This document shows positions 1,696 through 32,688 of a stretch of DNA of 34,814 nt, in pieces. The stretch comes from Desulfotomaculum sp. (GTDB lineage Bacteria; Bacillota; Desulfotomaculia; Desulfotomaculales; Desulfallaceae): positions 1-34,814 of the forward strand of contig JAENYQ010000033.1 in NCBI GenBank assembly GCA_016841675.1, given 5' to 3'. Each line of letters opens with the position of its first letter. Position 1 is the first letter of the stretch. Position numbers and translations under genes: made by a program. The notes under the pieces were generated by a model. That model saw nothing but the letters and a program-made list of their open reading frames with translations. It ran no database searches and was not told the DNA's origin.

Positions 1696-1714
1696 AAGTG
1701 GCAAGTAAATATGA

Positions 1715-1992
1715 TAAAGGTAATGAAGGGGAAAAGTAGACGGTACCCAGCTTTTCAGGGAGGAAGCGTCGCGACTGAGAGCGCTTCTAAGGCATGAATC
1801 GTTGAAGTTCTCCCCCGAACTGTCGGACTGAACAACTTGGAAAGTAGGCCCGACCGGAAACTTCTACCGTTAAAAGGAAGGGGGTATAAGGAACATTTTC
1901 CCGTACCCTGCCTACGAGTGGACCTTGATGGTCAACAAGGGTGGTACCGCGAGAGTAACTTTTCGTCCCTAGGGATGAAAAGTTTTTTGTTT
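1715..1992 (+). promoter_or_regulatory. T-box leader (tRNA-sensing riboswitch) of the liv operon
   Basis: The hallmark T-box sequence AGGGTGGTACCGCG is at 1938-1951. It can pair with CGTCCCT (1964-1970) as antiterminator. The competing terminator is AACTTTTC...GAAAAGTT (1958-1985) followed by a T-rich run. Stem I is seen as a basal helix 1715-1722/1865-1872, an AGTA motif at 1735-1738, and an upper helix CGGT/ACCG (1741-1744/1853-1856). The specifier strand is then GAAACTTC (1857-1864). With the usual GAA-N-NNN-N spacing the specifier is CTT (1861-1863, leucine); TTC (phenylalanine) is the alternative. The TGGT bulge fits a tRNA with an A discriminator base. Leucine agrees with the downstream branched-chain amino-acid importer. 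Confidence 0.88.
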
Positions 1993-5444: not shown

Positions 5445-5448
5445 GGAT

Positions 5449-5530
5449 AGGGGACACATCTGCTGAAGCTTGGGTAGTTCTCCGGGGACAGGACCACAAG
5501 TATGGGGTCGAGGAATGTCTCATGTATGAA
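5449..5530 (+). repeat. Degenerate relative of the livF palindromic element
   Basis: The livM-livG gap contains AGGGGACACATCTGCTGAAG near its start and GAGGAATGTCTCATGTATGAA near 5511-5530. These match the left and right ends of the 42-bp unit found three times inside livF (AGGGGACACACCTCC... and GAGGAATGTCCCCAACGTAT), with about 40 extra bases in the middle. I read it as an older, expanded copy of the same element. Confidence 0.5.
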
Positions 5531-5576: not shown

Positions 5577-6344
5577 TTGCTCTTGGAAGTGCAAGGTCTT
5601 ACAAAACATTTTGGTGGTGTTGCCGCAGTTAGAGATGTTGGGTTTGAAGTATCCGAAGGCACAATATTTGCCCTAATCGGTCCTAACGGTGCCGGCAAAA
5701 CAACGGTTTTTAATCTGATTACCGGTATACTTAGGCCCGACAGCGGATTCATCCATTTTTTGGGTAAACCCCTTGACGGACTTAAACCGCATCAGGTTTC
5801 TGCAGCAGGTATCACCAGAACCTTTCAAAACCTACAGCTGTTTAATGGTATGACTGTGTTGGAAAACGTAATGACCGGTGCTTACTTAAACGGCAAAACA
5901 GGCTTTGTTAGATCATTACTTCGCATGCCCGGTATAAACGCAGAAGATAAACTGATTAGTAAGCAGGCCCTGACACTGCTCAGTGAGGTTGGTTTGGAGA
6001 GTGTTGCCGATATCCCTGCTGCAGCGCTTCCCTTTGGGCAGCAAAGACTACTGGAAATAGCCAGGTCACTGGCTTCCGGACCACGATTAATCCTGCTGGA
6101 TGAACCTGCTGCGGGGTTAAACAGCGCCGAAACAAAGACCCTGGCTATTTTTCTTAAAAAGCTGAAGCAAAACGGTTTGTCCATGGTTTTGGTGGAACAC
6201 GATATGGAAACTGTTATGGAAGTGGCTGACCGTATTTTAGTCTTAAACTTCGGTGAAGGAATATCTGAAGGTACACCGGCGGAGATTCAGGCTGACCCGG
6301 AAGTAATCAGGGCTTACCTGGGGGAGGATGATCAGATTGCTTAG
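5577..6344 (+). CDS. livG: Branched-chain amino-acid ABC transporter ATPase LivG
   Basis: A 255-residue ABC ATPase, normal LivG length. Walker A is GPNGAGKTT (about residues 35-43). The Q-loop region is GITRTFQNLQLF, the signature is LPFGQQRLLEIARSLA, Walker B is LILLDEPAAGLN, and the switch histidine is in LVEHDMETVM. It powers import through LivHM together with LivF. The start chosen is TTG at 5577, preceded by GAAGGGGG at suitable distance; no ATG fits as well. Its last 17 bases overlap the start of livF, which suggests translational coupling. Confidence 0.94.
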   Translation: MLLEVQGLTKHFGGVAAVRDVGFEVSEGTIFALIGPNGAGKTTVFNLITGILRPDSGFIHFLGKPLDGLKPHQVSAAGITRTFQNLQLFNGMTVLENVMTGAYLNGKTGFVRSLLRMPGINAEDKLISKQALTLLSEVGLESVADIPAAALPFGQQRLLEIARSLASGPRLILLDEPAAGLNSAETKTLAIFLKKLKQNGLSMVLVEHDMETVMEVADRILVLNFGEGISEGTPAEIQADPEVIRAYLGEDDQIA

Positions 6345-7209
6345 AATAAAAGGGCTGGATGTTTATCACGGATATGTGCAGGCAGTTCGGGGATTGTCCA
6401 TGCATGTAAAAGAGGGTGAATTGCTGGCAATTCTTGGTTCCAACGGGGCCGGTAAGAGCTCCCTGCTTGGTACGCTGGCCGGTCTGAATAAACCGGCCAA
6501 GGGGGATATATTGTTGAAGAGGAAAGGGGACACACCTCCTTCAGAGGAATGTCCCCAACGTATGAAAGGGGACACACCTCCTTCAGAGGAATGTCCCCAA
6601 CGTATGAAAGGGGACACACCTCATTTAGCGGAAACAGAGGAATGTCCCCAATCATATCAAGCAATAACCGGGAATTCTCCTGAAAAAATGGTGCGTTTGG
6701 GCATAAGTTTGGTGCCGGAACGAAGGGAAATCTTCGGCTCTTTGAACGTATTGGATAACCTTATGCTTGGCGCCTATCATCGTTACCGCAGTGATAAAGC
6801 AATAATTCCAAGTGACATCCGGGAAGTTATGGAGTTCTTCCCTGCGTTAAAGGACCGTGAAAATGAGTTGGCGGGAACATTAAGCGGAGGTCTTCAACAG
6901 ATGCTTGCCATCGGAAGAGCACTGATGGCCCGTCCCAAACTGCTGCTCCTGGATGAGCCGTCGGTTGGTCTGGCTCCGCTGGTGGTGCGGGAGATTATGT
7001 CTATTCTGGCCCAGCTGAAAAACACCGGTGTAACAATTATGCTGGTGGAACAGAACACAAGGGCTGCCCTGAAAGTAGCGGACAGGGCACTTGTTATGGA
7101 AAGAGGCACGATTACTATCAGCGGCAGTTCGGATGAGCTAATGTCTGATGTCAAGGTGCAGCAGGCCTATCTGGGGCGCGCTCGCGTCCAGGCAGCTGTC
7201 GCGTTGTAA
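6328..7209 (+). CDS. livF: Branched-chain amino-acid ABC transporter ATPase LivF with in-frame repeat insertion
   Basis: A 293-residue ABC ATPase; typical LivF proteins are about 235. Walker A GSNGAGKSS (37-45), signature LSGGLQQMLAIGRALM, Walker B LLLLDEPSVGL and LVEQNTRAAL are all intact. Residues 66-79 and 80-93 are two identical copies of KGDTPPSEECPQRM, followed by the variant KGDTPHLAETEECPQ (94-108). They split the normal strand-to-helix segment between GDILLKR and AITGNSPEKMVRLGI, a surface region ahead of the LVPERREIF loop. All three units are multiples of three bases, so the frame survives. I expect a folded ATPase with a roughly 43-residue hydrophilic, cysteine-bearing loop. The ATG follows GGGGAGG inside the livG end. 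Confidence 0.9.
   Translation: MIRLLRIKGLDVYHGYVQAVRGLSMHVKEGELLAILGSNGAGKSSLLGTLAGLNKPAKGDILLKRKGDTPPSEECPQRMKGDTPPSEECPQRMKGDTPHLAETEECPQSYQAITGNSPEKMVRLGISLVPERREIFGSLNVLDNLMLGAYHRYRSDKAIIPSDIREVMEFFPALKDRENELAGTLSGGLQQMLAIGRALMARPKLLLLDEPSVGLAPLVVREIMSILAQLKNTGVTIMLVEQNTRAALKVADRALVMERGTITISGSSDELMSDVKVQQAYLGRARVQAAVAL
6523..6650 (+). repeat. Three tandem palindromic units inside livF
   Basis: Units at 6523-6564 and 6565-6606 are identical 42-mers; a third, 6607-6650, has nine extra bases in its centre. Each contains GGGGACA...CTC and GAG...TGTCCCC as inverted arms, so each can form a hairpin. Ends and behaviour recall palindromic elements that insert into genes in frame, as described for Rickettsia; no sequence relation to those is claimed. 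Confidence 0.85.
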
Positions 7210-14395: not shown

Positions 14396-14451
14396 AAAAG
14401 GGGACAGGCTACTTTTTTCGGTTTTTGAAAAAAGATGCCTGTCCCCTTTTT
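14396..14451 (-). repeat. 56-bp hairpin repeat, copy 1; likely terminator of yhhQ
   Basis: AAAAGGGGACAGGC at the left end is complementary to GCCTGTCCCCTTTT at the right end; an inner stem CTTTTTTC/GAAAAAAG continues it past a two-by-two mismatch. Copy 2 at 32633-32688 differs at two positions only. Here it lies 12 bases after the yhhQ stop on the minus strand and ends in T on both strands, so it probably doubles as a two-way terminator. Confidence 0.8.
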
Positions 14452-32632: not shown

Positions 32633-32688
32633 AAAAGGGGACAGGCTGCTTTTTTCGGTTTTTGAAGAAAGATGCCTGTCCCCTTTTT
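32633..32688. repeat. 56-bp hairpin repeat, copy 2
   Basis: Same structure as 14396-14451, with A-to-G changes at two positions, one of which would turn an A-U pair of the inner stem into G-U. Here it lies between divergent genes, 129 bases before the next start, where a terminator has no evident job. That supports a mobile repeat rather than a gene-specific terminator. Confidence 0.8.

Follow-up and report, generated by a model that had tools for sequence, protein, structure and literature searches.

An in-frame palindromic array in livF as a probable insertion site of a large, self-nesting repeat family in Clostridia

Introduction

How does an array of palindromic repeats come to lie, in frame, inside a conserved transporter ATPase? 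The question is raised by livF in the window, the whole 34,814-nucleotide stretch of DNA analysed here, which is contig 78 of a 3.84-Mb draft genome of Desulfotomaculum sp. (G000 in the genome comparisons). The answer we favour, with a probability of about 0.82, is that the array lies at one of the sites where a large family of palindromic, non-autonomous mobile elements has inserted. The locus contains the following features.

6328..7209, + strand: livF, branched-chain amino acid ABC transporter ATPase, 293 aa, carrier of the insert (NCBIfam model, orthologues, dN/dS)
6516..6657, + strand: inserted DNA, approximate extent, ~46 extra codons net (protein and DNA comparison with the empty G004, G013 and G015)
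6522..6563, + strand: unit 1, 42 bp; hairpin 6526-6556, left box 6526-6538, right box 6544-6556
6564..6605, + strand: unit 2, copy identical to unit 1; hairpin 6568-6598
6606..6657, + strand: unit 3, longer; hairpin 6610-6649, with AGCGGAAA in the loop
~5448..5528, + strand: decayed long-loop copy between livM and livG (compare L067 and L114)

The livF array forms hairpins and is read through

Much of a preliminary description of this array was confirmed. Units 1 and 2 (6522-6563 and 6564-6605) match at 42/42 positions and are followed by a longer third unit; each unit forms a hairpin in which GGGGACA/TGTCCCC and CCTC/GAGG pair around a CA/AA internal loop. Single units fold with z of about -4.3 to -4.5 and the whole array with z of -7.7, and none of 200 shuffles was as stable as the latter. 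The array is also stop-free and in frame, as had been proposed: the livF ORF is open throughout 6328-7209, Walker A, the LSGGLQQ signature and Walker B (LLLLDEP) share one frame, and the peptide KGDTPPSEECPQRM is found twice. The protein exceeds its empty orthologue in G004 by ~46 residues (293 aa vs 247 aa). The relative in the livM-livG gap, described as short, exists but is a decayed long-loop copy. Both ends of the insert appear only approximate from the sequence comparison.

The LivF protein matches the NCBIfam LivF model in two stretches around the insert (E 1.8e-61). In an AF2 model the core has a pLDDT of ~94 and residues 68-104 fall below 50; the modelled fold superposes on the Thermotoga ABC ATPase 1ji0 with an rmsd of 1.3 A. 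The insert is thus predicted to be a disordered loop on an intact ATPase fold. The AGCGGAAA in the loop of unit 3 is the usual left flank of a nested unit and is probably a scar left by an inner layer that was lost. We also found, at 1714-1973 (+) of the window and thus upstream of the liv operon, a T-box leader (RF00230, 116 bits), which suggests tRNA-controlled expression of the transporter.

The unit belongs to a dispersed repeat family

The proposal that the unit is a dispersed palindromic element was borne out, with copies found genome-wide, both in genes and between genes. The exact 13-base left box GGGGACACACCTC occurs 99 times in the 3.84-Mb genome (reversed control, 0), a number well above chance, and the exact right box GAGGAATGTCCCC 75 times (reversed control, 1); the G000 copies group into 99 clusters. 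The consensus of the unit reads AGGAAA-GGGGACACACCTC-(3-30 nt loop)-GAGGAATGTCCCC-AAnnnATG. Two subtypes were distinguished, one with a short loop (mostly 5 nt) and one with a long loop (~20-30 nt, with GGGTC motifs), which have in common both boxes and the flanks AGGAAA on the left and AAnnnATG on the right (468 copies). The unit measures ~42 bp in the short subtype and ~63 bp in the long one (tandem periods of 42 and ~61-64). The view that units are always a multiple of three therefore holds for the short subtype, with its period of 42, but not for the long-loop subtype, with tandem units of 61, 62 and 64 bp. The hairpin is stable, its CA/AA internal loop is conserved and some covariation is seen at the fourth CCTC pair. 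The box sequences were not found printed in the literature searched, and the family is apparently undescribed so far.

The family is dispersed over Clostridia. Box pairs are present in 12/16 genomes of the family Desulfallaceae and are sparse in Bacillota at large (20/398 genomes). Among the matches listed, carriers include Desulfoscipio geothermicus and Desulfotruncus alcoholivorax (Clostridia, Desulfallaceae), Desulfocucumis palustris, Pelotomaculum, Desulfosporosinus, Dethiobacter, Sedimentibacter and Candidatus Formimonas. Viral contigs gave 4 matches and the plasmids searched gave none, so the family is essentially chromosomal.

Exact tandem growth was also seen outside G000. In G111, from elsewhere in Bacillota, six identical long-type units follow one another with an exact 60-bp period (contig 17, 1106571-1106919), and a second array nearby has a period of 61 bp. 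The tandem periods of 42 and 63 bp (window 6522-6647 and other tandem arrays) correspond to 4 and 6 helical turns at 10.5 bp/turn, possibly by coincidence.

Genic copies are in frame and nearly always sense

Genic sites were taken from simple greedy ORF calls on the stretches around copies in six genomes, plus family searches. The same element was found in frame in many other genes, the support that the preliminary description had looked for. In-frame sense copies were found in these hosts:

MurG, PurL, TreY, Mfd, LigA, TopB, StiP, RACo, SpoIIE and LivF
a bPH protein, the tail of a NuoE-like protein and a few unnamed ORFs
an AddA-like UvrD helicase, at two sites of 220 and 255 bp
RsmB (identity read from conserved motifs)
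an Orn/Lys-type decarboxylase (identity from residues; no NCBIfam match)

After removal of shared sites, one false match and one doubtful N-terminal case, ~21 distinct in-frame sense sites stood against 2 antisense sites in the six genomes (p 7e-5), a count in which frame-breaking insertions are under-represented because in-frame genic copies were recognised by their open ORF. L299, at first sight a genic copy, proved to be a ferredoxin cysteine motif instead of an element and was excluded by hand. Intergenic copies whose two neighbours are transcribed in one direction showed a mild codirectional excess (47 vs 31, p 0.09), and the genic and intergenic sets differ in orientation (Fisher p 0.005). 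Conserved genes have thus been entered in frame and nearly always in the sense direction. The only two clear antisense genic copies are L113 2501-2578 and L319 3560-3588, both in ORFs that look like UDP-GlcNAc 2-epimerase.

The sense bias does not come from stop codons, since sense and antisense frames of the other copies are open almost equally often (262/507 and 266/507). Sense peptides are more hydrophilic than antisense ones, with GRAVY values of -1.33, -1.77 and -0.68 vs 0.38, 0.04 and -0.12. The reading RGHTS..GGMSP dominates (21/29 rows); nested layers rotate among all three frames, for example in AddA and TopB. We infer that antisense and hydrophobic readings are weeded out by selection once a copy has inserted, and such a filter would produce both the frame and the sense bias. 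The coding copies are probably translated as hydrophilic, disordered loops at tolerant surface positions.

Occupied sites are shared between genomes and remodelled

The insert had been thought to be possibly confined to this strain, and it is not: related inserts occupy the same LivF site in G006, G007 and G008, from two other genera. Their forms differ: G006 has two layers, one nested in the other, G008 has two units in tandem, and G007 has only the left half. The site is empty in G004, G013 and G015, which read LLNGKSIAG or similar, and all more distant LivF paralogues compared lack the insert. Among the insert-bearing LivF orthologues dN/dS is 0.07-0.24, which indicates purifying selection on livF genes that carry the insert. 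The suggestion of recent amplification stands in part: the exact 42-bp duplication looks recent, but the livF insertion itself is older and not strain-specific, and the duplication appears to be the sole demonstrably recent event at livF. The closest carriers of the insert belong to other genera, and same-genus genomes have no close LivF; horizontal transfer of the liv operon is therefore possible. Given such transfer among genera, the age of the insertion may be uncertain; it predates these operon lineages, transfer or not.

Sites in three further genes were compared between G000 and its relatives. RsmB carries inserts in G000 and G001 that differ inside and are present in 0/14 of the other family genomes. 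In LigA, G000 has 28 additional residues and G001 a scar of 6 residues; the 14 others have neither. In AddA, whose loops vary in length, no such insert was found in either loop in 14/16 family genomes. Comparison of G000 with the empty relatives at RsmB, LigA and AddA shows that the copies are insertions and not ancestral sequence. At AddA site 1 the nested layers number two in G001 and four in G000, and the outer spacers GGCAGCGGAAA, AACTTAAG and AACGTATG (also given as AACGTATGAAA) are common to both; site 2 of G000 is six layers deep, with an array of up to 255 bp (85 codons). As the sister species share outer layers and differ inside, the arrays gain or lose layers at the loop. Occupied sites are thus common to related genomes and are remodelled by gain or loss of tandem and nested units.

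Nesting of units inside one another, which was absent from the preliminary description, is the dominant feature of the family. The pattern L-L-L...R-R-R is frequent and reaches six levels. The numbers of L and R arms per array are correlated, both in G000 (rho 0.55, p 3e-6) and elsewhere (rho 0.58, p 2e-15). Such joint growth of unlike arms agrees with one unit inserting into another's loop, and it does not fit plain slippage. The usual G000 spacings, pooled over genic and intergenic arrays and less tidy outside the family, are 25 or 22 nt for L-L and 17 or 14 nt for R-R, so that most layers (25+17 or 22+14 nt) add a multiple of three. No obvious target duplication was seen at LivF, RsmB or LigA against the empty sites, where the boundaries are blurred by divergence; a net replacement of 6-9 nt is possible at LivF and RsmB. 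In a decarboxylase-like gene of G000 and G001 (L084/L303), the right box of the first unit is cut at AATGTC and the left flank of the next unit follows at once, a possible clue to the insertion point.

Alternative origins of the array

Tandem duplication or slippage in a tolerant LivF loop, with no mobile element, would explain why units 1 and 2 are exact tandem copies, and tandem LRLR arrays do occur. However, the 13-mer boxes lie in 99 clusters genome-wide and are found in other genera, the relatives have empty sites, and two arms with periods of 25 nt (L) and 17 nt (R) expand together. Slippage is refuted as a full account by the dispersed copies and as such is very unlikely, although for the last 42-bp duplication it is the likely process. 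The insert could also be an ancestral part of LivF throughout the family, as three orthologues from two other genera carry related residues at the site. Against this, G004, G013, G015 and the distant LivF paralogues are without it and the inner structure differs among the shared inserts; a family-wide ancestral feature is refuted, and we give it next to no chance.

Selection for a functional RNA or regulatory hairpin (an mRNA stabiliser, attenuator or protein-binding site), the coding copies being incidental, is unlikely, though the stable hairpin, its conserved CA/AA loop, the covariation at the fourth CCTC pair and the mild codirectional excess between genes all speak for it. On the sense strand, G.T (28 vs 30) and A.C (78 vs 74) mismatches do not differ in frequency, which gives no sign of an RNA-strand constraint; in addition, no Rfam family matched, a large number of copies have decayed and orthologous sites are occupied in a patchy way. 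A strong hairpin inside essential, conserved genes might instead be taken out of the RNA or the protein, in the manner of an intron, an intein or a bypass element. Such an element could do without an open frame, but arrays as long as 255 bp (85 codons, six layers) are open; the elements sit in length-variable loops such as those of AddA, and no splicing or intein features were seen, which leaves removal barely credible. Insertion of a dispersed element, followed by remodelling in place, remains our preferred reading.

Relation to known palindromic elements

Rickettsia palindromic elements (RPE) are, as far as their description in PMC2229807 goes, 105-146 bp long and Rickettsia-specific (Ogata et al. 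2000, in PMC2229807). The likeness to RPE, again within that description, is that a hairpin repeat lies between genes and also in frame in conserved protein genes, where it is read as an extra peptide (PMC2229807). The clostridial unit of ~42 or ~63 bp, often nested in itself, is set apart by the length and host given there, in agreement with the earlier suggestion of an RPE-like but separate family in Clostridia. Rickettsia was not among the matches listed in the genome scan. Insertion in non-coding RNA genes, a habit of RPE, was not found in the 60 G000 loci scanned; 6S RNA adjoins one G000 copy and does not surround it.

REP sequences (REP/REPtron) are 20-60 bp palindromes in high copy number and in clusters, with GTAG and CGTC superfamilies (Di Nocera et al. 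2013, PMC3733652). Intragenic REPs are biased to DNA repair genes, namely UvrD/RecB-type helicases and DNA ligase (PMC3733652), and the clostridial copies also favour DNA repair genes. In contrast to REPs, the clostridial units are arranged head-to-tail and nested, not as head-to-head dimers, and have no adjacent RAYT; no GTAG or CGTC tag was found at the hairpin foot in 468 copies, where the flanks are AGGAAA and AAnnnATG. The conserved CA/AA loop recalls the stem bulge that is needed for recognition of E. coli REP (PMC8266576). The self-inserting palindromes of Volvox organelles (PMC2670323) are organellar, intergenic and unrelated in sequence to the clostridial element.

The tests of unit length, tags and RAYT give no grounds for placing the clostridial family in RPE or in REP. 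What is new about this family is its nesting, its breadth and the run of intermediates seen at coding sites that genomes share. To our knowledge, palindromic elements that code for protein have been well documented in Rickettsia alone, apart from scattered REPs within genes. Here a large family in environmental Clostridia displays its intermediates (empty, single, tandem, nested, scar) at shared sites in essential genes, which makes two questions directly testable, namely how the element moves and how protein loops are born from selfish DNA. LigA, AddA, TopB, RsmB and LivF offer natural libraries of tolerated insertions. For annotation, loops encoded by the element should not be taken for functional domains.

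A candidate mobiliser

REP and TIR/TIRYT elements, which have this shape, are believed to travel as folded single strands under the action of Y1/HUH transposases. We suggest tentatively that the clostridial family is likewise moved in trans by a hairpin-recognising enzyme, most plausibly a Y1/HUH (RAYT- or TIRYT-like) transposase acting on single-stranded DNA; this stays somewhat short of even odds because the cognate gene was not found. New units probably enter mostly at existing copies, either in the hairpin loop (nesting) or adjacent to it (tandem). We hold the transposase proposal slightly more firmly than the idea that the hairpin is self-targeting, inserts by preference in loops of existing copies and thereby gives rise to concentric, base-paired arrays, with coding sites as permanent growth points. 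If so, occupied coding sites would yield new disordered loops in essential enzymes over evolutionary time.

The ACACCTC box was an inverted repeat of a Y1_Tnp gene at 0/68 loci (from G000, six relatives and six further Bacillota), while 30/68 had inverted repeats of their own. TIR/TIRYT repeats have a GGGGWSAS motif (PMC3733652), which the start of the left box, GGGGACAC, fits; given the 0/68, the TIRYT link is limited to these first eight bases. No Y1_Tnp gene lay close to copies in the stretches examined around them, and in an all-against-all protein comparison within 600 bp of copies the genes that recurred were common metabolic ones, with no mobility gene among them. The G417 draft, which is 90% complete, carries four copies but gave no Y1_Tnp match. 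Insertion on the lagging strand gained no support, since the replication-strand bias in the single-contig G012 was not significant (14 vs 8, p 0.29).

Y1_Tnp genes in carrier genomes have the inverted repeats GGGGTCAG, GGGGACAG or GGGGACGG. A resemblance between the long-loop core and GGGGTCAGGCTT, an inverted repeat of resident Y1_Tnp genes, was rejected as too weak (20/323 loops). The window also contains two hairpins of a different family, GGGGACAGGCT..GCCTGTCCCC, at 14400-14446 and 32637-32683; these look like non-autonomous copies, because their arms match the repeat that flanks a Y1_Tnp gene (L036, G000 contig 83).
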